DNA from: Pelagimonas phthalicica
GTDB taxonomy: Bacteria > Pseudomonadota > Alphaproteobacteria > Rhodobacterales > Rhodobacteraceae
Direction: 5' to 3'
Assembly (NCBI RefSeq): GCF_004364805.1
Contig: NZ_SOAP01000002.1
Coordinates: 806,001 to 870,000, forward strand
DNA length: 64,000 nt
Part shown: positions 48,789 to 58,537 of the stretch, one piece after another
Numbering within the stretch: position 1 is the first letter of the stretch
How the letters are laid out: every line of letters starts with the position of its first letter
Made by a program: the position numbers and the translations under genes
Notes under the pieces: generated by a model
The model's input: only the letters and a program-made list of their open reading frames with translations
What the model was told of the DNA's origin: nothing
Databases searched by the model: none

Positions 48789-49208
48789 ATGACCGACACC
48801 ATCATCGCGCGTTGCGCCGCCAAGGGTTTGCGCATGACAGGCCAGCGCCGGATCATTGCCGAAGTTCTGGAAAGCTCCAAAGATCACCCGGATGTCGAAG
48901 AACTTTATGCCCGCGCCTCGGCCCGCGATGACGGGATTTCCATCGCAACCGTCTATCGGACGGTGAAACTGTTCGAAGAGGCCGGGATTCTGGAACGGGT
49001 GGATTTTGGCGATGGGCGCGCGCGCTACGAAGATGCCGAGCGCGAGCACCACGATCACCTGATCGACATGAATTCTGGCGAAGTCATTGAATTCGTTGAC
49101 CCCGAGATTGAAGCCCTGCAGGAAAAGATCGCTGCGAAATTGGGTTACAAGCTCAAGGGTCACAAGCTTGAGCTATATGGCGTTCCGCTCAAGAAAGACG
49201 AAAACTAG
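48789..49208 (+). CDS. fur: Fur family metalloregulator, Mur/Fur-like
   Basis: 139 residues: a winged helix with GISIATVYRTVKLFEEAGI, then the metal-sensing part with EREHHDHLIDMNSGEVIEF. It lacks the CxxC zinc pairs of many Fur proteins, as do alphaproteobacterial Fur/Mur proteins that answer to manganese or iron. The C-terminal LELYGVPLKKDE is typical of that branch. The sensed metal cannot be told from sequence. It is convergent with the decarboxylase-like gene, sharing 4 bp. Confidence 0.92.
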   Translation: MTDTIIARCAAKGLRMTGQRRIIAEVLESSKDHPDVEELYARASARDDGISIATVYRTVKLFEEAGILERVDFGDGRARYEDAEREHHDHLIDMNSGEVIEFVDPEIEALQEKIAAKLGYKLKGHKLELYGVPLKKDEN

Positions 49209-49594
49209 GCGTTTTCCCCCTCGTCAAAGACCTTCTTCGCCACACGGAAACACTCCAAGGCCTGCGGAACCCCGCAATAGATTCCGATCACATGAATGAT
49301 CGCGCGCACTTCTTCCTTGGTGACGCCATTATTGATCGCGCCCCGGCAGTGAATTTCCCATTCATGCATTTTGCCCAAGGCCCCGATCATTGAAAGGTTC
49401 ATCATCGACCGGGTTTTGGCATCGATGACATCATCCCCCCAGCCAAAGCCCCAACACCAGGCGGTCATGGCCTCTTGAAACGGGCGGGTAAACTCATCCG
49501 CCGCCGCCAGGTTCTTTTCGACATATTCCGCGCCCAGTGTGGATTTGCGTTGTTCCAATCCTTTGAGGAACAGATCCTCGTCAAATGTGCTCAT
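49205..49594 (-). CDS. Carboxymuconolactone decarboxylase family protein
   Basis: 129 residues, PcaC-like in size, with SMIGALGKMHEWEIHCRGAINNGVTKEEVRAIIHVIGIYCG. There is no AhpD CxxC redox pair, so it is not a peroxidase partner. It is the last gene of the RpiR-Rieske-aldehyde dehydrogenase operon, 3 bp after the dehydrogenase. A lactone or tautomer step in the same catabolic pathway is possible, but the reaction is not readable. AAGGGG precedes the ATG. Confidence 0.85.
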   Translation of the reverse strand: MSTFDEDLFLKGLEQRKSTLGAEYVEKNLAAADEFTRPFQEAMTAWCWGFGWGDDVIDAKTRSMMNLSMIGALGKMHEWEIHCRGAINNGVTKEEVRAIIHVIGIYCGVPQALECFRVAKKVFDEGENA

Positions 49595-49597
49595 GAT

Positions 49598-51073
49598 TTA
49601 CCCCTTGAGTTTGATGGCGACGTTTTTGGTCTGCACATAATTCCACAGTGCCTCGCGCCCTTTCTCTCGTCCATAACCGGATTTGCCATAACCGCCAAAG
49701 GGTGTTTCAACCCCGCCCGCATACCATTCGTTGACAAAGACCTGACCAGCGCGAATTTGCCGGGCTGCCGATGTCGCTCGGTCGAGATCGCGGGTAAAGA
49801 CACCACCGACCAGCCCATAGGGCGTGCCATTGGCGATTTTGATCGCCTCGTCATCTGACGAGAATTTCAACACCGACAGGACCGGGCCGAACACTTCGTC
49901 ATTGGCGATGGTCATGTCTGGACTAACGTCTGTCAGGATTGTTGGCTCAAGACAGGCACCGGGCGTGTTGAGCCGTCGACCACCCGTCGCAACCTGCGCC
50001 CCATCAGCTTCGGCTTGTGCCACCATCGCCTCGGCCCGGTCCCGTTGTCCAACCGACACCATCGCCCCCATGGTCGGCCCAAACTCCGGCTGATCAATGC
50101 CGGGTTTTACGATCAAGGATTTGGCCACCCCAACCATGCGGTCGACCAAGTCGTCATGCACGCTTTCATGCACAATCACCCGGCTCATGGCGGAACATAC
50201 CTGTCCTGCGTTGAAAAAGATCCCCCAGCGCAGGTCGTTTTCAAAGGCATCCAAATCCGCATCATTGTGCACAATCGCAGCGGATTTCCCGCCCAGTTCC
50301 AACACGCAAGGCACAACATTACGCGCCGCCGCCGTAGCAATGGCGACACCCGTTGGCACTGAACCGGTAAAGACAATCTGGTTGACCATGGGATGGCCGG
50401 ACAGGGCCGCGCCTGCCTCATGGCCCAAACCACACAGGATATTGACCGCCCCGCTTGGCAATCCAACCGCTTCGGCAGCATGCGCGAACCAGGCATTGGT
50501 GAGAGGGGTCAGTTCGGGCGTTTTGATCACGCAGGTATTGCCCGTGGCCAGGGCCGCAGACAAAGATCGTGCAGTCATCTCCACCGGGTAATTCCACGGG
50601 ATGATTTGGGCAGAGACCCCAAAGGGCTCGTAAGTGGTGAAATCAAAGTAGCCCTTGCCCAGCGGAATCGAACGCCCCTCAACCGTTTCAGCCTGATTAC
50701 CGTAATATTCGAAATAGCGCGCGGCCCCCTCAATCTCGATCCTGGATTCCCAGAGTGGCTTGCCCTGCTCCAGGGTCAGGACCCGCGCGATGTCACCGAT
50801 GTTTTCAAGCAGATAACGCCCCATGGCCTGCACCATGCGGCCACGTTCCACCGGGCGCAGATCCGACAATGCGCCTGACAGATGCACCCGGCGCGCCGCC
50901 ATTACAGCGCGATCGACATCCCCCGCATCCGCCAAGGCGTGCTCGGCCAGTTTTTCGCCGGTGGCAGGGTCGATCACATCGATCCGCCCTGCCCCGCCAT
51001 CAACCCACGCACCATCAATGTAATTCTGCCAATAGGGCTTCATCGCCTGTCCGTCCATTTCATGTGAGGTCAT
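49598..51073 (-). CDS. NAD(P)-dependent aldehyde dehydrogenase
   Basis: 491 residues (481 if the start is 51,043, MKPYWQNYIDG, which is more family-like). The active-site Glu is in LELGGKSAAIVHN and the nucleophilic Cys in FNAGQVCSAMSR. NAD-binding residues IIPWNYP are present. In this operon it probably oxidises an aldehyde formed by the oxygenase or aminotransferase; the exact substrate is unknown. The ATG at 51,073 abuts the Rieske gene stop. Confidence 0.92.
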   Translation of the reverse strand: MTSHEMDGQAMKPYWQNYIDGAWVDGGAGRIDVIDPATGEKLAEHALADAGDVDRAVMAARRVHLSGALSDLRPVERGRMVQAMGRYLLENIGDIARVLTLEQGKPLWESRIEIEGAARYFEYYGNQAETVEGRSIPLGKGYFDFTTYEPFGVSAQIIPWNYPVEMTARSLSAALATGNTCVIKTPELTPLTNAWFAHAAEAVGLPSGAVNILCGLGHEAGAALSGHPMVNQIVFTGSVPTGVAIATAAARNVVPCVLELGGKSAAIVHNDADLDAFENDLRWGIFFNAGQVCSAMSRVIVHESVHDDLVDRMVGVAKSLIVKPGIDQPEFGPTMGAMVSVGQRDRAEAMVAQAEADGAQVATGGRRLNTPGACLEPTILTDVSPDMTIANDEVFGPVLSVLKFSSDDEAIKIANGTPYGLVGGVFTRDLDRATSAARQIRAGQVFVNEWYAGGVETPFGGYGKSGYGREKGREALWNYVQTKNVAIKLKG

Positions 51074-52162
51074 TCAAACCTGCGGAGTATCCACAGCTTC
51101 GCGCATCCAGCGCTGCAGATGCATGACCGGATGTTCGGAATTCACCCCGCCACAAGGGTCAATCACCAGCGGACCGGGCACATATCCACGTGAGCCAAGG
51201 CCACGCTGCACCGATTCCACCAGATGAATGTCCTCTTCGACGGTGGTTTCCCGGTCCTGCACCGCCAATTGCCGGATCTTGGCATCTTCGACACCACCGA
51301 CCGAATACCAACCACGCCAGACCACCACATGATCGGCATCAACAGCGCGCCAATGATAGGTGTTCAGCACGTTGCCGGGATAGACCTGAAAGGAAAACAT
51401 CGGCCATAGGAACCAACTGGAATACTCGTTCTGATGAGCAAAGCCGGATTGGATGTCATAGGTCATCTGATCCAGAGATTGGCATTGCGTTGTGTGGCGC
51501 AGGCACATGCCTTGGGGTTGAATGTCATAGGTTTCCGGCTTGATCACCCCATTGGCAAACGTCGGGTGGTTCAACGAACAGTGGTAACATTCGGAATAGT
51601 TCTCGACCGAAACCTTCCAGTTGCAGTTCTCTGGGATTTCCACCCATTCCAGCGGTTTCAGATCAGCCCAATTGGGCACCCATTCCTCGAGCTCAGCCCG
51701 CGCATTGGGAAACCATTCCTCCATCGGCGCGGCATCGGGGTCAAGATTGACAAAGACAAAGCCCAGAAACTCTTCGGCGCGCACTTCGGTCAGGCAAACC
51801 TTGGATTTATCAAACCCATCCACCGCCTTGATATTTGGCCCTGCCCGCAATTCGCCGGTCAATTCATAGGTCCAGGCGTGGTAAGGGCAAACGACCACGC
51901 GGGTCGACCCCTTGCCGCTGACCAATTGATGGGCGCGGTGTTGGCAGACATTGTAGAACACCCGGATCTTGTCATCACGTCCGCGGATGGCAAACAGGCT
52001 TTCACCGGCGATCTCAAAACAGGCGTAATCGCCGGTATTGGTCAGGTCAGACCCATGGCAGCCGAATTGCCAAGTCCGTGCCAATAGCCCCTCGGTTTCT
52101 AACCGGAAAACCTGCGGATCGGTGTAATACCGCGCCGCCAAAGACGTGATCGGGTCGTTCAT
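51074..52162 (-). CDS. Rieske-type oxygenase alpha subunit, quaternary-amine type
   Basis: 362 residues. The [2Fe-2S] ligands are C73-x-H75 and C92-x2-H95 (CQHRAH and CPYHAW). The mononuclear iron site is ENYSECYHCSLNH, with His194 and His199 as ligands and Glu191 in place of the usual bridging Asp. That Glu is a mark of oxygenases acting on carnitine, glycine betaine or stachydrine, which remove methyl groups or cleave the amine. No reductase subunit is encoded nearby, so a distant one must serve. The ATGA overlap with the regulator gene shows an operon. Confidence 0.92.
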   Translation of the reverse strand: MNDPITSLAARYYTDPQVFRLETEGLLARTWQFGCHGSDLTNTGDYACFEIAGESLFAIRGRDDKIRVFYNVCQHRAHQLVSGKGSTRVVVCPYHAWTYELTGELRAGPNIKAVDGFDKSKVCLTEVRAEEFLGFVFVNLDPDAAPMEEWFPNARAELEEWVPNWADLKPLEWVEIPENCNWKVSVENYSECYHCSLNHPTFANGVIKPETYDIQPQGMCLRHTTQCQSLDQMTYDIQSGFAHQNEYSSWFLWPMFSFQVYPGNVLNTYHWRAVDADHVVVWRGWYSVGGVEDAKIRQLAVQDRETTVEEDIHLVESVQRGLGSRGYVPGPLVIDPCGGVNSEHPVMHLQRWMREAVDTPQV

Positions 52163-53046
52163 TTTTCCTCCGCTTGGTATAGCCCCAATTGATGGCGGCG
52201 CTTGTGAAAGGTCTCGACCCGTTCGACGATTTCATCGCTCGCCACGGCAACGACGAATGACAGCAGCGTTTCAAGCAAGGCAATGATGCTGACGCTGGAC
52301 GGGAAGAATTGCGGCGTGTCGACTGAGACAACAAAGCCGTGATCCGCCGCATGAATGATCGGACTGGCCGGGCTGTCAGACAGGGCAATGATCGTCATGC
52401 CCTGTTCGCGCGCAATATTCACGGCCTCGACCACTTCGCTCCGGTAGGGTTTGCAGGTGATCGCAATCAGAACGTCACGCTTATCGGCCCAGGCCAGATC
52501 ATCCACAGGGGTCGATCCCGGCCTTGGGATGGCGTGAAATTCGGTCATCCCGGTTGAGGCCAGATAGGTAAAGTTGCGCGCCACCGAATTGTTGACCCCA
52601 ACCCCAAGCGTAAAGACGCGCCGCGCGTTCCAGATAGCGTCTGCTGCAGATTTCAACGCATCTGTCGAGATATCGGCAAAAGTCGCTTCGACATTGGCCA
52701 GCACATCACGCACCATATCCGCATAAAGCCCACCAAGATCCCCGGATTTGGAAATGTCCTGCAACCAACGGGCACGATCCGGAAAATCAGCCGCGCCACG
52801 CCGGATCGCATCGCGGAACGGCGCGCGAAAATCCTCGTAACCGTCAAACCCCACCTGACGCGCCATGCGCACCACGGTGTTGGGTTTTACATTTGCAGCC
52901 TCAGCAATCTCGCGCACCGTGGACACCCCCACATCGCGGGGGTTTTCCAACACATAGGTTGCGGCCTTGCGGGCTTCGGGCGTCAGCTCGGGCAATTCGC
53001 CCGCCAGCCGCTCCAGAATCGATTTTGATATGTTTGTACCATTCAT
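52159..53046 (-). CDS. MurR/RpiR family transcriptional regulator
   Basis: 295 residues: an HTH_6 domain (about 1-80, with VSTVREIAEAANVKPNTVVRMARQVGF) and a SIS ligand-binding domain (about 120-260, with FTLGVGVNNSVARN and ITCKPYRSEVVEA). It is first in the minus-strand operon with the Rieske, aldehyde dehydrogenase and decarboxylase-like genes, and divergent from the flavoprotein operon. It probably controls both. The ATG at 53,046 is chosen because the longer frame crosses the divergent promoter. Confidence 0.92.
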   Translation of the reverse strand: MNGTNISKSILERLAGELPELTPEARKAATYVLENPRDVGVSTVREIAEAANVKPNTVVRMARQVGFDGYEDFRAPFRDAIRRGAADFPDRARWLQDISKSGDLGGLYADMVRDVLANVEATFADISTDALKSAADAIWNARRVFTLGVGVNNSVARNFTYLASTGMTEFHAIPRPGSTPVDDLAWADKRDVLIAITCKPYRSEVVEAVNIAREQGMTIIALSDSPASPIIHAADHGFVVSVDTPQFFPSSVSIIALLETLLSFVVAVASDEIVERVETFHKRRHQLGLYQAEEK

Positions 53047-53078
53047 GATTGACGATGGTATTTTTGTTTGCTTAGCCT

Positions 53079-53098
53079 GTCGAGTGTAAATCGACTCG
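53079..53098. promoter_or_regulatory. Overlapping inverted repeats in the divergent promoter
   Basis: GTCGA-N7-TCGAC (53,079-53,095) and CGAGT-N8-ACTCG (53,081-53,098) overlap in the 67-bp spacer between the RpiR regulator and the flavoprotein gene. They form a likely operator for the regulator. Confidence 0.6.
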
Positions 53099-53113
53099 AA
53101 AAGGAATGTTGTC

Positions 53114-55558
53114 GTGGCGAATGAATTTCCGAGCACCGCACGGGTTGTCATTGTGGGCGGCGGTGTCATGGGGGTGGGGCTAGCCTACCATTTGGGCCAT
53201 GAGGGCTGGGGTGCAGACACGGTTCTGCTGGAAAAGTCCGAACTGACATCGGGCAGCACCTGGCACGCAGCCGGGCAGATCACCCATTCGACCAGTTCCT
53301 TTGGTCTTGGCAAATGTGTTGATTACAATATCAGCTTGTATTCCGGGGTGTTAGAGGCCGAAACGGGCCAGCCCGTCACCTGGCATGGCTGCGGTTCTTT
53401 CCGCCTAGCCTATACCGAAGATGAAATGGACTGGCTGCGTCACACCTTATCCGTGGGGCGGGCGCTTGGATTTAACATCGAGCTTGTCGGGCCCGAGGAG
53501 ATTGCCAAACAGCATCCGTTTTACAATCTCGACGGGGTTCTTGGTGCGTTGCACACCCCGGATGACGGGCATGTTGACCCGACCAATGTGACCATGGCCA
53601 TGGCGGCGGGCGCACGGCAAAAAGGCGTGCGGATCATCCGCCAGTGCCGCGCCACCAATATCACGCAACTGCCCTCGGGTGAGTGGCAAGTCGAGACAGA
53701 GCGCGGCGCGATCACCTGCGAACATGTGGTGAATGCGGGCGGGACCTATGCGCGCCAGATGGGCGAGTGGTCCGGCCTTCAATTGCCCATGACCTCGATG
53801 ACCCACCATTATTTCGTCACCGAACCGGTGCCGGAGTTTCAGGGGCTGGAGCGTGAATTACCAGTCATCCGCGATGACAAAAAAGTCTCGGGCTATATCC
53901 GGATGGAGCAAAACCGCGGCTTGATCGGGATTTACGAAAAGGAAAACCCGAACTCCGTCTGGCATGATCATTGCCCTTGGGAATATGAGAACTGGCTGTT
54001 TGACGCAGATTACGACCGGGTCATGCCCTATCTTGAAGAAAGCCTGAACCGCATGCCGGTCTTTGCTGAACTCGGCATTCAGCGCGATGTGCACGGCGCG
54101 ATCAGCCACCCGCCAGATGGCAACCCGTTGATCGGCCCTGCCCCGGGCGTGCGCAATTATTGGTGCTGCTGTGGCACTCAAATCGGCATCGGCTGGGGGC
54201 CTGGCCTGACCCGAGAATTGGCGCGCTGGATGGTGCATGGTTCGGCTGACATCTCCATGCGCGACTTTGACCCGCGCCGTTTTGGCAGTTACGCGACCAA
54301 AGACTGGCAGGTTGTGAAAGCCGAAGAGGATTATTGCCTGCGCCACGAAATCCCGTTCCCGCATTTCAACCGCTTGGCGGGGCGTCCGATCAAACCCTCC
54401 CCCTTGCATGAGCTGCTGAAAGCCAAAGGGGCCGTACATGAAGAGGTCTATGGTTTTGAACGCCCCCGCTTTTTCGCCAAGGGCATCGCCCAAGAGGATC
54501 ACTATTCCTTCAACCGCACCCCGGTGGACGACATGATTGCGTCCGAGGTCAAAGCGGTGCGTGAGGCTGTCGGGATCATGGATGTCACCGCCTTTACCAA
54601 GGTCATGGTCCAAGGGCCAGACGCTTATGCGCTGCTGGACCGTTTGACCGCCAACCGTATGCCACAAAAGGTCGGAGCGATCACGCTCACTCATATGTTA
54701 AACCGCGCCGGGCGAATTGAGTTGGAAACAACCATTGTTCGCATGGGAGAGGACCGGTTCTATCTGGTCTGCGCCGCCTTCTTTGAGCAGCGTTTGTTGG
54801 ATCACCTCGCGCATCAACGCGACGGCGAAGATGTTACAATCACAGCACTTTCTGCGAATTGGAGCGCCCTGTCCCTGAACGGCCCCCTAGCGCGCGATGT
54901 CTTGGCAAACTGCACAGATGCCGATCTGTCCAATGCCGGGTTCCGCTGGCTCTCTGCGCAGGAAATCAACGTTGCGGGCCATTCGATCTGGGCCTTGCGT
55001 ATGTCTTATGCCGGCGAATTGGGCTGGGAATTCCACATGCCCAATGCCGCCTGTTTGGATGTTTACAACGCGCTTTGGACCGCTGGTGAACCCCATGGCA
55101 TCACAGATTACGGCTCTTTCGCGATGAATGCCATGCGGATGGAAAAAGGATTCAAAGGGGCCGGAGAGTTGACTAACGAGGTCACCCTTGCCGAAGCAGA
55201 CGTCTTGCGCTTTGCCCGTCAGGACAAAGACTATCTGGGGCGTGACAAGACCCTGAACACCGATCTGCCCTGGATCTGCGCCTATCTGGAAATCGAACCG
55301 GATGGAAAAGCAGACGGCCATGGTGGCGAAGCGGTCATGCTGGATGGCGATGTGGTGGGGGCAACTGCCTCGGTTGTGTTTGGCCCGACGGTGGGAAAAA
55401 TCCTCGCCTTTGCCTATGTCAAACCATCTGCCGCAACACCGGGCACAGAGCTCGAAGTCGTCATTCACGGCCAAGCGCGCGCCGCACGTGTTTTGGGGGA
55501 ACCAGCCTATGACCCCAATTCCGACAAACCCAGAACAGATGCAAAGGTGAGCGCATGA
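53114..55558 (+). CDS. Dimethylglycine dehydrogenase-like FAD oxidoreductase with GcvT domain
   Basis: 814 residues. An FAD-binding DAO domain opens with VVIVGGGVMGVGLAYHL. STWHAAGQ supplies a His at the position that binds FAD covalently in dimethylglycine oxidase. The C-terminal half is a folate-binding GcvT-type domain (about 430-800) that would capture the formaldehyde unit on tetrahydrofolate. It oxidatively demethylates a secondary or tertiary N-methyl amine. The GTG start at 53,114 has AAAAGGAATG upstream; no in-frame ATG is close. The stop overlaps the cupin start. Confidence 0.93.
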   Translation: MANEFPSTARVVIVGGGVMGVGLAYHLGHEGWGADTVLLEKSELTSGSTWHAAGQITHSTSSFGLGKCVDYNISLYSGVLEAETGQPVTWHGCGSFRLAYTEDEMDWLRHTLSVGRALGFNIELVGPEEIAKQHPFYNLDGVLGALHTPDDGHVDPTNVTMAMAAGARQKGVRIIRQCRATNITQLPSGEWQVETERGAITCEHVVNAGGTYARQMGEWSGLQLPMTSMTHHYFVTEPVPEFQGLERELPVIRDDKKVSGYIRMEQNRGLIGIYEKENPNSVWHDHCPWEYENWLFDADYDRVMPYLEESLNRMPVFAELGIQRDVHGAISHPPDGNPLIGPAPGVRNYWCCCGTQIGIGWGPGLTRELARWMVHGSADISMRDFDPRRFGSYATKDWQVVKAEEDYCLRHEIPFPHFNRLAGRPIKPSPLHELLKAKGAVHEEVYGFERPRFFAKGIAQEDHYSFNRTPVDDMIASEVKAVREAVGIMDVTAFTKVMVQGPDAYALLDRLTANRMPQKVGAITLTHMLNRAGRIELETTIVRMGEDRFYLVCAAFFEQRLLDHLAHQRDGEDVTITALSANWSALSLNGPLARDVLANCTDADLSNAGFRWLSAQEINVAGHSIWALRMSYAGELGWEFHMPNAACLDVYNALWTAGEPHGITDYGSFAMNAMRMEKGFKGAGELTNEVTLAEADVLRFARQDKDYLGRDKTLNTDLPWICAYLEIEPDGKADGHGGEAVMLDGDVVGATASVVFGPTVGKILAFAYVKPSAATPGTELEVVIHGQARAARVLGEPAYDPNSDKPRTDAKVSA

Positions 55559-56151
55559 CACAGGCCTCTGTCTGGGCGCAAGCGGCAACCGAGCTTGAGC
55601 ATTGTTTTGCCACCCACCCCACTCTTGCACAATTCAGCGCCTTTCCGACCGACCTCAGGCCTCAAAATACAATGGCGCGGGGATTGCCTGCACGCGATTT
55701 GTTGACAGCGGATCAAGCGCTTAGCCATGGCTCATCTTCATCTTTGCGTGACGCAGTGCTGGCGCTTGCACCGGTTGCACATTGGCTTGATCATTACCGA
55801 GACAGCGAAATTGGCGATGATTTTCTGAATCGTTTCGGCTGTTTCTGTCTGGTCGGCGATCAAGGAGGCTTTGCTTCGGATCAATTGCGCGCCTGGCTGG
55901 TCTACATGCCGCCGCACCTGCACTATCCGTGGCATCACCACCCGGCAGAAGAGCTGTACCTTGTTCTTGCTGGGAAGGCCGAATTCCTGCGCGCCGGGCA
56001 AGACCCGCAGTGGCTGACCGTTGGTGACACAGTCTTTCATGCCCCCAACCAGCCACATGCGATGACCACAGGCACAGACCCGGTTCTGTGTCTGGTGTTT
56101 TGGCGGGATCAATTTGAAACCGGTCCGCAACTCACAGCACAAGAGGCATAG
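55555..56151 (+). CDS. dddQ: DddQ-like cupin (DMSP lyase family)
   Basis: A 198-residue single-domain cupin like DddQ, which splits dimethylsulfoniopropionate into acrylate and dimethyl sulfide. The metal motif HxH-x3-E is at His127, His129 and Glu133 in HYPWHHHPAEELY, with Tyr135 nearby and His168 in HAPNQPHAM. These match the DddQ metal and catalytic positions. The operon is built for N-methyl amine breakdown rather than acrylate use, so the true substrate may be something else. The ATGA overlap ties it to the flavoprotein gene. The symbol is tentative. Confidence 0.8.
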   Translation: MTQASVWAQAATELEHCFATHPTLAQFSAFPTDLRPQNTMARGLPARDLLTADQALSHGSSSSLRDAVLALAPVAHWLDHYRDSEIGDDFLNRFGCFCLVGDQGGFASDQLRAWLVYMPPHLHYPWHHHPAEELYLVLAGKAEFLRAGQDPQWLTVGDTVFHAPNQPHAMTTGTDPVLCLVFWRDQFETGPQLTAQEA

Positions 56152-56152
56152 G

Positions 56153-57256
56153 ATGAAGATCTCTCGGCTTTCACTTTGGTCCTGTGACCTGACCAGCCAT
56201 GAAACCTATCACATGTCCGAGGGCAAGACCTGTGACACGGTCAAAACCCATATCCTCTGCCTGGAGGCCGATACAGGGCTGAAGGGCTGGGGGGAGGTCT
56301 GCCCGATCCCGCATTATCTGCCCGCCTTTGCCGATGGGGTTCCCAGTGCCGTCACCGAAATGGCACCTGAAATATTGGGCCAGTCGCCACTGGGGGTAGA
56401 CAGCCTGATGCACCGGTTGGACAAATACCTGATTGGGCATTCCTTTGCCAAATCTTTGGTGGACATGGCGCTGTGGGATCTGTTTGGCAAAGCCGTTGAC
56501 CAGCCGCTCTATGCCTTGCTGGGCGGTCGGATGCAGGCTGATATGCCGCTTTATCATTCGATCACATGCATTGCCCCGGATGACATGGCGCGGATCGCGC
56601 GCGAGGCTTATGGGACCGGGATCCGGCAGTTTCAGGTCAAACTGGGAGCCGATCAGGATTGGCAAGCCGATGCGGAACGCCTGATCAAGGTGCGCGAAGC
56701 GGTGGGCGATGGCCCGCTTGTCTATGGCGATTGGAATTGCGGCGCGACCAAGTTGCAGGCCACCCGCACAGGCCGGGCCGTTGCCCATCTGGATATTATG
56801 CTGGAGCAGCCCTGCAAGACGCTAGAAGACTGCGCCGCCGTACGACAAGCTACGGGTCTGCCAATGAAAGTCGACGAGAATGCTTTTGATATGGCTTCGC
56901 TTTTGCGCGCAGCCGACCTAGGCGTTCTCGATGCAGTCGCGCTGAAACTCAGCAAATTTGGTGGTCTCTCTGCGATGCGCCGCGCCCGCGATCTGACGGT
57001 TCACCTGGGGGCCGAAATCTGCGCTGAATGCACCTGGGGGTCTGACATAGTCACTGCCGCCGCGTTGCATTTCGCGGCCTCGACCCCGCCCAATGCCTTG
57101 CTGAACACCTGTGATCTGTCCTCCTACGTTGGCCCGCGCATCGCCCCCGATGGCCCGACCCGCAAAAATGGCCGCATTGCTCCGCCCAAAGGTCCCGGCC
57201 TTGGCGTTTCTCCTGATTTGGACTTTCTTGGCTCCCCCTTGCTTGAACTGGCTTAA
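56153..57256 (+). CDS. Enolase-superfamily (MR/MLE) enzyme, betaine racemase/epimerase-like
   Basis: 367 residues with an N-terminal capping domain and a barrel. Acid/base Lys163 (FQVKLG) and Lys265 (ALKLSKFGG) face each other. Metal ligands are Asp193 (YGDWN), Glu219 (LEQP) and Asp241 or Glu242 (VDEN). This Lys pair, together with the GSDI loop, resembles hydroxyproline-betaine 2-epimerase/proline-betaine racemase. It could set the stereochemistry of a betaine before demethylation. The ATG at 56,153 follows AGAGGCATAGG; the ORF could start earlier inside the cupin gene, but that is less likely. Confidence 0.88.
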   Translation: MKISRLSLWSCDLTSHETYHMSEGKTCDTVKTHILCLEADTGLKGWGEVCPIPHYLPAFADGVPSAVTEMAPEILGQSPLGVDSLMHRLDKYLIGHSFAKSLVDMALWDLFGKAVDQPLYALLGGRMQADMPLYHSITCIAPDDMARIAREAYGTGIRQFQVKLGADQDWQADAERLIKVREAVGDGPLVYGDWNCGATKLQATRTGRAVAHLDIMLEQPCKTLEDCAAVRQATGLPMKVDENAFDMASLLRAADLGVLDAVALKLSKFGGLSAMRRARDLTVHLGAEICAECTWGSDIVTAAALHFAASTPPNALLNTCDLSSYVGPRIAPDGPTRKNGRIAPPKGPGLGVSPDLDFLGSPLLELA

Positions 57257-57259
57257 CTC

Positions 57260-58537
57260 ATGCAGAAACTTACCTCTCAGTCCGAATGGATCGCCCGTGC
57301 GCAGACCGTGTTACCCGCCGGTGGTTTCGGGAATTTTGACCCTGGCATCATCATTTCTCATGGCCAGGGTAGCCGTGTCTGGGATGAGGATGGCACGGAA
57401 TATGTCGATTACCTGATTGGCTCTGGCCCAATGTTGTTGGGGCATGGGCACCCCGAAGTCATGGAGGCCGTGCTGGAACAACTGCCAAAGGGCATGACGT
57501 TTTTCGCAAATAATTCCAAAGGCATCGAACTAGCCGAAGCCATCGTCACTGCCGTGCCTTGTTGCGAACAGGTGCGTTTTGTGGCCTCGGGCGGCGAGGC
57601 GGATATGTATGCGATCCGGTTGGCCCGTGCCTATACAGGGCGCAACAAGATCCTGAAATTCGAAGGCGGCTATCATGGGATGAGCGCCGAGGCACAAATG
57701 AGCCTCGCCCCCGAGGCGCGGGTGAACTTTCCCCAGGCTGTGCCGGACAGTGCCGGTATCCCGCAGGGCGTGGCCGATCAGATGCTGATTGCACCCTATA
57801 ATGACCTCAGCGCGGTCGAGGCCTTATTGGCCGAGCACAGTGATATTGCCGCAATCATTGTTGAACCGTTGCAACGGATCATTCCGCCCGAACCCGGCTA
57901 TCTGCAAGGGCTGCGCGATCTTTGTACCAAACACCATGTTCTGCTGATCTTTGACGAGATCGTCACCGGGTTTCGCCTGGCCTTTGGCGGGGCGCAAGAG
58001 CGCTATGGCGTGGTGCCGGATATCTGCACCATGGGCAAAATCATCGGTGGGGGTTTTCCCCTGGCAGCGCTTGGGGCCAGTGCCGAGATCATGATGCATT
58101 TCGACAAATCCATCGTGGGAGCTGAAAAATGGCTGATGCAATTGGGTACGCTGTCGGGCAATCCGATTGCGGCCGCAGCAGGATTGAAAACGATGGAGAT
58201 ATTGGGGCGCGCGGGGAATTATGAGCGGCTGCGCGAGACGGGAAAAACCCTGCAAGACATGCAGAGTACCGCGCTGAGTAAGGCAGGCATCCCACATCAG
58301 ATTTGCGGTGATGAAACCCTATTCGACATTTACTTCACCGATGCGCATTGCCGCGATTACCGCAGCGCGCATCATGACGATCCCGGTCGAAATACGCTAT
58401 ATAACAAGACTTTGCGCAGCCATGGCGTGTTCAAATCGCCGGGCAAACTCTATGCATCACTGGCCATCACCCAAGAGGATCTGGAGCTCACACAAAATGC
58501 AGTCATGCAGGCCGTTCAGGCAATCTGCGCCACCTAA
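57260..58537 (+). CDS. Class III PLP-dependent aminotransferase
   Basis: 425 residues with the fold of aspartate aminotransferase-family or glutamate-1-semialdehyde aminomutase-like enzymes. FVASGGEADMYAIRLARAYTG forms part of the cofactor site, LIFDEIVTGFR holds the PLP Asp, and the Schiff-base Lys is in TMGKIIGGGFP. The amine substrate is unknown; in this operon it may process an amino acid left after demethylation. It starts 3 bp after the enolase-superfamily gene and ends the operon. Confidence 0.9.
   Translation: MQKLTSQSEWIARAQTVLPAGGFGNFDPGIIISHGQGSRVWDEDGTEYVDYLIGSGPMLLGHGHPEVMEAVLEQLPKGMTFFANNSKGIELAEAIVTAVPCCEQVRFVASGGEADMYAIRLARAYTGRNKILKFEGGYHGMSAEAQMSLAPEARVNFPQAVPDSAGIPQGVADQMLIAPYNDLSAVEALLAEHSDIAAIIVEPLQRIIPPEPGYLQGLRDLCTKHHVLLIFDEIVTGFRLAFGGAQERYGVVPDICTMGKIIGGGFPLAALGASAEIMMHFDKSIVGAEKWLMQLGTLSGNPIAAAAGLKTMEILGRAGNYERLRETGKTLQDMQSTALSKAGIPHQICGDETLFDIYFTDAHCRDYRSAHHDDPGRNTLYNKTLRSHGVFKSPGKLYASLAITQEDLELTQNAVMQAVQAICAT

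Follow-up and report, generated by a model that had tools for sequence, protein, structure and literature searches.

A conserved gene cluster of marine bacteria that probably breaks down a nitrogen-methylated osmolyte and includes relatives of DddQ

Rieske oxygenases acting on quaternary amines are sorted by the residue at position 203, which is aromatic in group Va (carnitine, choline, and benzalkonium as substrates) and Asn in group Vb; the latter enzymes demethylate glycine betaine and proline betaine, and in one of them, Stc2, the substrate carboxylate sits on the iron (PMC7948474). DddQ is known as an enzyme that makes dimethyl sulfide (DMS) from dimethylsulfoniopropionate (DMSP); a structure has been solved for the R. 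lacuscaerulensis enzyme (RlDddQ), and 4LA3 shows DddQ with DMSP (PMC5395565, PMC10686828). Ocean surveys score dddQ as a gene for DMS production, despite a reported RlDddQ Km for DMSP of 22 mM (PMC5395565). Members of both families are encoded in a cluster of eight genes in Pelagimonas phthalicica, within a stretch of 64,000 nucleotides (contig NZ_SOAP01000002.1, positions 806,001 to 870,000; hereafter the window). The cluster represents a conserved, uncharacterised pathway of marine bacteria, with an N-methylated osmolyte as its probable substrate. Elsewhere, close relatives of its cupin that are known as DMS makers belong to the same pathway, which suggests that their original job may differ.

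Composition and conservation of the cluster

All eight open reading frames (ORFs) were verified at 49205-58537, the span that an earlier note on this DNA had proposed, and its description of two tightly coupled divergent operons around an RpiR-type regulator was borne out by coordinates, families, and gene spacing. By Pfam and NCBIfam matches, the minus strand encodes a CMD-family protein, an aldehyde dehydrogenase (ALDH), the Rieske oxygenase, and RpiR, and the divergent plus strand a flavoprotein resembling dimethylglycine oxidase (DMGO), the cupin, an MR/MLE enolase-superfamily enzyme (MLE), and a class III aminotransferase. The RpiR and Rieske genes overlap by 4 bp, as do the flavoprotein and cupin genes; other gaps between genes are 0-3 bp, and a 67-bp intergenic region is common to both operons.

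A Rieske orthologue (E<=1e-100) was found in 63 genomes of a 394-genome family sample. Loci anchored on the Rieske gene, one per genus, gave a set of 57 that covers all of these genomes except G102, G139, G160, G198, G236, and G312; orthologues were scored at identity thresholds of 30-80%, depending on the gene, and the counts cover the fetched stretches, at most about 20 kb each. The five-gene core of Rieske oxygenase, RpiR, flavoprotein, enolase-superfamily enzyme, and aminotransferase was complete in 47/57 loci. Gene by gene, RpiR was present in 56, DMGO in 55, any MLE in 51, the aminotransferase in 48, CMD in 40, an MDR reductase in 36, DddQ in 20, ALDH in 19, GFA in 15, arylmalonate-decarboxylase-like (AMD) and sulfotransferase-like (SULT) genes in 13 each, and a BCCT transporter in three. 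Nine loci lacked the aminotransferase or MLE, and for six of these the fetched stretch is below 16 kb. All eight genes recur in Aliiroseovarius sp. PrR006 (L002), in an order identical to that of the window and at 71-93% identity, and Ruegeria conchae (L003) has the same arrangement at 67-92%, with seven genes in full and ALDH matched partly. Because the arrangement is kept in these two genomes and the core in most loci, the cluster is not a chance assembly.

Of the 24 loci obtained in a cupin-anchored scan of named genomes, ten beyond L002 and L003 carry an extended or partly sequenced version of the cluster (L004, L009, L012, L013, L016, L017, L018, L020, L022, and L023); some cupin match at E<=0.001 was present in 186/394 genomes of the family sample, many of them weak. 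Additional genes in relatives include the MDR reductase, between flavoprotein and cupin, GFA, a DSBA-like gene, the SULT gene, and the AMD gene (27.4 bits; gathering threshold 25.9); a locus may also have as many as three extra MLE paralogues and as many as three DddQs. Within the 57-locus set, the SULT and AMD genes (L013:1653-4324 and relatives) occur together and never apart. In G218, which belongs to the same genus as the window genome, cupin and Rieske matches were absent at E<=0.001 and E<=1e-100, respectively; the cluster is thus not universal in the genus.

The shared intergenic region also carries an element conserved across genera, TTGACGATGGTATTTTTGT, followed by TTAGCC at 53072-53077, 17 bp after TTGACG; the layout may represent a promoter whose spacer contains an RpiR operator. 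Side-by-side comparison of 40 divergent intergenic regions revealed GATTGAC, on one strand or the other, in 37. The pattern TTGACGATGGTANNNNTGT without mismatch was found once per genome, always at the DddQ/cluster locus, in all eight genomes searched, which had been picked for holding the cluster (G000, G394, G395, G421, G478, G398, G443, and G439). The search rule used detected no TCGA- or GTCG-containing dyads upstream of RpiR.

The earlier note held that this complement defines no known pathway end to end. In keeping with that, no paper on the cluster was found by title or start of abstract in searches on DddQ with Rieske, enolase superfamily, dimethylglycine, gene neighbourhood, betaine, or promiscuity, nor in searches on hydroxyproline or proline betaine with Rieske and epimerase; key subscription papers lay outside both.

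Candidate substrate and pathway

The nearest PDB match of the window Rieske protein is the carnitine monooxygenase CntA (6y8j, 213.6 bits), with 120/339 aligned positions identical (35%). CntA residues Y203, E205, H208, H213, and D323 are all kept; Tyr203 occurs in 56 of the 57 loci (the other has His), and Glu205 and the iron ligands in all 57. Iron ligands, bridging Glu, and the cation-pi Tyr are therefore common to both enzymes, and the aromatic residue 203 with bridging Glu205 places the protein in group V, clade Va. It lacks the Asn203 of group Vb (Stc2/GbcA) and scored 149.2 bits against the GbcA family NF058607, below the cut-off of 670. The CntA substrate pocket (Y225, F258, N270, Y295, Y315, and F319), however, is not kept. 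The six residues are replaced by T (one S), Y, Q, R, D, and T, the last five invariant in 57/57 loci; CntA Tyr295, which contacts the substrate (PMC7948474), is thus Arg in the cluster enzymes. Retention of the Va head-group residues together with replacement of the tail pocket suggests that a quaternary ammonium is bound and that the acid is other than carnitine. These residues point to a distal trimethylammonio acid and make a model in the manner of proline betaine less likely; both C-N cleavage and demethylation of a distal ammonium would be compatible with them. Demethylation is favoured by the flavoprotein and by GFA, which neighbours the Rieske gene in relatives.

A betaine substrate is also supported by a BCCT betaine transporter in the operons of five related loci (L199, L200, L232, L234, and L240). 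In L199, it lies between ALDH and CMD (PF02028, 502.3 bits), and it is likewise placed in L200, where the match is in two pieces, and in L232, L234, and L240. The earlier note's statement that there is no transporter holds for the window and fails for these relatives.

We lean towards a single RpiR-controlled catabolic regulon for a candidate trimethylammonium carboxylic acid (betaine), most likely one with its ammonium distal (beta or further) from the carboxylate and with a C2 stereocentre. The scheme, in which we infer every reaction, the order of reactions, RpiR control, and the substrate, builds on the observed gene content, families, conservation, shared element, residue sets, and location of the structurally studied DddQs. 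Uptake would be by BCCT in some relatives and by a transporter encoded elsewhere in the window genome. The MLE enzyme may catalyse epimerisation or beta-elimination at C2, and the Rieske enzyme would attack the quaternary nitrogen, either by N-demethylation to formaldehyde or by CntA-like C-N cleavage. The flavoprotein would then strip the remaining N-methyls with transfer to folate, the class III enzyme would transaminate the freed amine to a semialdehyde, ALDH would oxidise the latter, and the CMD protein may act on the resulting oxo- or dicarboxylate. DddQ would be an accessory lyase that removes the beta-onium group from a related intermediate or isomer. The N-methylated betaine catabolism proposed in the earlier note is thus supported, by the transporters of relatives, the group V residues, the folate-type flavoprotein, and GFA; this general idea survives, but stereo-inversion with demethylation as for proline betaine is made less likely by Tyr203 and is no longer the default reading.

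The other enzymes were compared with their closest described families. The flavoprotein has the domain order DAO-FAO_M-GCV_T-GCV_T_C of dimethylglycine and sarcosine oxidases with a folate domain, but no NCBIfam cut-off was reached among the matches listed, and it differs at one invariant residue: WHAAG, presumably the region of the FAD-attachment His, is kept in 39/39 sequences, and the acidic position of the folate domain, which we take to be the catalytic Asp of dimethylglycine oxidase, is Glu538 in 39/39, whereas four other DMGO-like proteins have Asp there. The aminotransferase has its best family and PDB matches to glutamate-1-semialdehyde aminomutase, yet falls below the cut-offs (PRK00062, 381.8 bits against 398; hemL, 363.5 against 527.3; PDB 2cfb, 313.6 bits). 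It appears to have GFGNFDPG in place of the presumed N-terminal SPVR-type motif of that enzyme. A role in heme biosynthesis was rejected, given these scores and orthologues tied to this cluster. ALDH reached no NCBIfam cut-off among 25 of 43 families listed, and the CMD protein scored 117.4 bits against 155.7 for PcaC (TIGR02425); it has three other matches in the window genome, 30-35% identical. The pairing of a class III aminotransferase with ALDH under common control suits a terminal amine.

The best-surviving alternative, which we nevertheless consider unlikely, is a CntA-like pathway in which the Rieske enzyme frees trimethylamine from an acid resembling carnitine and ALDH, encoded next to it, converts the semialdehyde by oxidation. 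The close match to CntA, its fully kept iron ligands, bridging Glu, and cation-pi Tyr, and the ALDH gene directly downstream in the window are all as expected. However, the six pocket residues are replaced in 56-57 of the 57 loci, the flavoprotein and aminotransferase would be superfluous, and no reductase gene is present among the eight; the best GbcB-type match in the genome (120.6 bits against a cut-off of 500) is on another contig.

A second alternative is a proline betaine or hydroxyproline betaine pathway, in which the MLE enzyme epimerises C2, the Rieske enzyme and flavoprotein demethylate, and the amino acid is then degraded. The PDB matches of the MLE enzyme include 4mgg (264.5 bits), 4e8g (210 bits), and 4h2h (198.9 bits), of which we take the first to be an LhpJ-type enzyme and the others HpbD. 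Its three metal ligands and both catalytic Lys are present (FQVKLG, GDWNC, LEQPC, KVDEN, and ALKLSK), as is the WG[GS]D Trp. The two-Lys plus D/E/D metal site is that of HpbD, but is common to MLE-subgroup enzymes and not specific. The Rieske demethylation logic of HpbD and LhpJ clusters, as we assume their pathways to run, can also be likened to that of the window. LhpJ is a cis-3-hydroxyproline dehydratase; the LhpJ-type enzyme is described in PMC5144071. In contrast to those clusters, the window has a different Rieske group, with Tyr203 where the proline-betaine demethylase Stc2 has Asn; an aminotransferase, unexpected for a secondary ring amine, in place of hydroxyproline genes, none of which was found by Pfam and NCBIfam among the eight apart from MLE itself; and an MLE enzyme under the NF043002 cut-off (318.4 bits against 500). 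In addition, the latter is closer to 4mgg and 2rdx than to HpbD, and 4h2h was matched at no more than 37% in the loci searched. We judge this pathway improbable.

Two further candidates were rejected: a homarine pathway, for which the literature search gave no gene-cluster paper, and a link to acrylate through AcuI, as the MDR neighbour, which the window lacks, scored 41.5 bits where the AcuI family has a cut-off of 440. The available parts of PMC7221440, PMC9038784, PMC4437653, PMC4809877, PMC4113996, and PMC8163506 do not settle the substrate. Under the betaine regulon that we favour, a concrete guess of our own, and a very long shot, is the head group of the algal betaine lipid diacylglyceryl hydroxymethyltrimethyl-beta-alanine (DGTA), which is HOCH2-CH(COO-)-CH2-N+Me3. 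On it, MLE would serve as C2 epimerase or dehydratase and DddQ would catalyse beta-elimination; the Rieske enzyme, flavoprotein, aminotransferase, and ALDH would also be chemically sensible on such a beta-trimethylammonio acid, and the AMD-like protein of relatives could likewise be given a sensible task. A literature search on DGTA and on beta-alanine betaine gave no title that deals with degradation of the head group by bacteria.

DddQ within and outside the cluster

The window cupin, called DddQ-like in the earlier note, is indeed a DddQ-family protein: RlDddQ residues Y120, H125, E129, Y131, H163, and W178 are all present, and its PDB matches are 5cu1 (171.9 bits), 4b29 (133.4), 5jso (123.5), and 4la2 (123.1). 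The DddQ tree has 89 rows (matches of >=38% identity and >=130 aa; two of its three PDB fragments are identical to locus rows); Y120, H123, E129, Y131, and H163 are present in all 89 and H125 in 88. With midpoint rooting, the tree splits into two deep clades; the window cupin groups with 5cu1 in Q1, whereas 4la2 (RlDddQ) and 4b29 are in Q2. The family and catalytic residues are nevertheless those of the DMSP lyases, and two structurally studied enzymes lie in the same gene cluster: the 4la2 fragment is 100% identical to a DddQ of G421 and the 4b29 fragment to one of G478, both inside the cluster (L133 and L134). The gene order of L133 is AT3, MLE, MLEd, DddQ, MDR, DMGO, then divergently RpiR, Rieske, CMD; that of L134 is AT3, MLE, MLEd, MLEc, MLEb, DddQ, DddQ, MDR, DMGO, then RpiR, Rieske. 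L134 also encodes 2rdx and 2qdd, each at 99.7%. 3eez is presumably from R. pomeroyi; 2rdx, 2qdd, and the 3eez orthologue group are enolase-superfamily structures that, as far as is known, were deposited with no function assigned. Among 54 genomes of the Ruegeria genus group, a 3eez orthologue (84-90%) lies <=3 kb from DddQ in 43 of the 45 with a strong DddQ match (E<1e-50). The two exceptions have it on another contig (G445) or have only a more distant MLE near DddQ (G450). Since 3eez was matched at no more than 90% in these 54 genomes, the dddQ locus of R. pomeroyi itself was not found among them.

DddQ is accessory to the cluster: 37 of the 57 Rieske loci are without it, so the eight genes do not form one complement as the earlier note had it. 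With loci treated as independent although the genomes are related, its presence was associated with MLEc (Fisher p 0.0002), MLEd (p 0.002), and MDR (p 0.02), but not with CMD (p 0.56), ALDH (p 0.24), or AMD (p 0.18). MDR, which the window lacks, accompanies DddQ in 17 of the 20 DddQ-bearing loci, often with extra MLE paralogues. In G086, G141, G176, and G200, the Rieske cluster and a DddQ locus, lone or partial, are at separate sites. Likewise, in G443, G439, and G440, of the Ruegeria group, the DddQ locus lacks the Rieske and flavoprotein genes, which are held by separate, DddQ-free loci (L198-L200); the class III aminotransferase of these differs from that of the cluster, and L198 has no RpiR or ALDH match.

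Could the locus instead serve DMSP catabolism, with DddQ as the physiological DMSP lyase and its neighbours either co-inherited passengers or acting on DMSP-like compounds? An R. pomeroyi dddQ mutant is reported to make 97% less DMS, and in R. pomeroyi and R. nubinhibens alike DMSP is reported to induce dddQ; both reports argue against a native role other than on DMSP, whereas an R. nubinhibens mutant made only 20% less, which, like the 22 mM Km, favours another role (PMC5395565). DddQ enzymes also cleave dimethylsulfoxonium propionate (DMSOP), often more efficiently than DMSP (PMC10686828), so their substrate range is not tight. Against a DMSP locus are also the scarcity of DddQ in the Rieske loci and the lack of any DMSP or acrylate family, besides the cupin, in the eight genes and ten flanking ORFs of the window, which is where such families were sought. 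We regard a DMSP locus, like the proline betaine pathway, as improbable.

Within the betaine regulon, a tentative and rather doubtful extension is that DddQ arose as a beta-onium lyase of an undescribed quaternary-amine pathway, not as a DMSP lyase, and that cleavage of DMSP and DMSOP is secondary; the native substrate would then be a C2-substituted beta-trimethylammonio acid, the guessed DGTA head group being one example. The reported induction of dddQ by DMSP (PMC5395565) lowers the probability of such an origin. We rate the cluster as making the native substrate of DddQ testable: with structurally studied DddQs inside a conserved betaine cluster, the neighbour enzymes and an inducer screen offer a way to find that substrate or to confirm DMSP. 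An answer would also give functions to 2rdx, 2qdd, and the 3eez orthologue group and add a route in marine organic nitrogen cycling.

Several observations weigh against a single betaine regulon with DddQ as a part. Tyr203 argues against plain group Vb demethylation, and if cleavage were CntA-like, a linear pathway could hardly accommodate the flavoprotein and aminotransferase. Glu538 in place of Asp may alter folate transfer by the flavoprotein. With <=2 mismatches allowed, TTGACGATGGTANNNNTGT matched many other places, namely 7, 7, 24, 8, 5, 17, 13, and 17 in the eight genomes in the order given above, exceeding the 4, 1, 1, 0, 3, 3, 1, and 3 of a reversed-pattern control; two of these matches fall within the intergenic regions between the divergent operons of L198 and L199. 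The DMSP induction just described also counts here, the 4b29 dddQ being in the cluster. None of the other scored genes was near DddQ in 21 loci of a 76-locus DddQ set, which was built from chosen matches (eight duplicates removed), so its fractions are not frequencies, and reduced Ruegeria loci (L135, L143, and L144) keep RpiR-MDR-DddQ-MLE without the Rieske or flavoprotein gene, although the DddQ-free loci L198-L200, elsewhere in the same genomes, have both. In further loci, among them L005, L010, and L075, neighbours of DddQ resemble housekeeping genes, as judged by eye, which speaks against one common role of the family.

In favour of the regulon, some DddQs outside the cluster also have quaternary-amine genes as neighbours. 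L084 (4669-17000) places DddQ beside TauD, distantly like trimethyllysine and butyrobetaine dioxygenases, two homocysteine S-methyltransferases, DMGO, MTTB, and a partial Rieske match, with a ferredoxin reductase-like protein and a phenol-hydroxylase-like gene, and is possibly another betaine locus. In L078, DddQ is beside two Rieske enzymes with Phe203; a DMGO-like gene adjoins it in L006, and one is nearby in L008. CMD alone is beside DddQ in L065 and L088, and ALDH alone in L019 and L061.

Coordinates, flanks, and minor observations

Table 1. Features of the cluster in the window, with strand and family matches.
Feature	Position	Strand	Evidence or remark
CMD-family protein (PcaC paralogue), 129 aa	49205..49594	-	PF02627, 67.6 bits
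Aldehyde dehydrogenase, 491 aa	49598..51073	-	PF00171, 509.9 bits
Rieske oxygenase alpha subunit, group Va quaternary-amine type by residue, 362 aa	51074..52162	-	PF00355, PF00848
RpiR-type regulator	52159..53046	-	PF01418 (HTH_6) + PF01380 (SIS); start revised from 53169
Shared divergent region	53047..53113		Element TTGACGATGGTATTTTTGT at 53049-53067; putative promoter/operator
DMGO-like FAD oxidoreductase with folate-binding GcvT domains, 814 aa	53114..55558	+	PF01266, PF16350, PF01571, PF08669
DddQ-family cupin (clade Q1), 198 aa	55555..56151	+	PF16867 (DMSP_lyase), 75.3 bits
MR/MLE enolase-superfamily enzyme	56153..57256	+	PF13378, PF02746; start revised from 56114
Class III aminotransferase, glutamate-1-semialdehyde aminomutase-like, 425 aa	57260..58537	+	PF00202, 212 bits

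The boundaries of the cluster hold because the ten flanking ORFs tested, on both sides, are unrelated to it (Fur, SelO, DUF533, NADAR, and others on the left; tRNA_SAD, MscS, PALP, and NUDIX on the right). From the revised start, RpiR begins MNGTN, and as its relatives in L133, L143, and L144 start with or contain MNDTN, this start is the most likely one. Searches of the 64-kb window gave neither a tRNA nor an Rfam family at its gathering threshold. CMD is unusually conserved, mostly 80-95% identical across genera, and most cupins outside L002 and L003 only 30-53%. In a Pelagimonas metagenome-assembled genome (L004:16776-19868), an MTTB-family methyltransferase gene and two SDR genes follow the aminotransferase.

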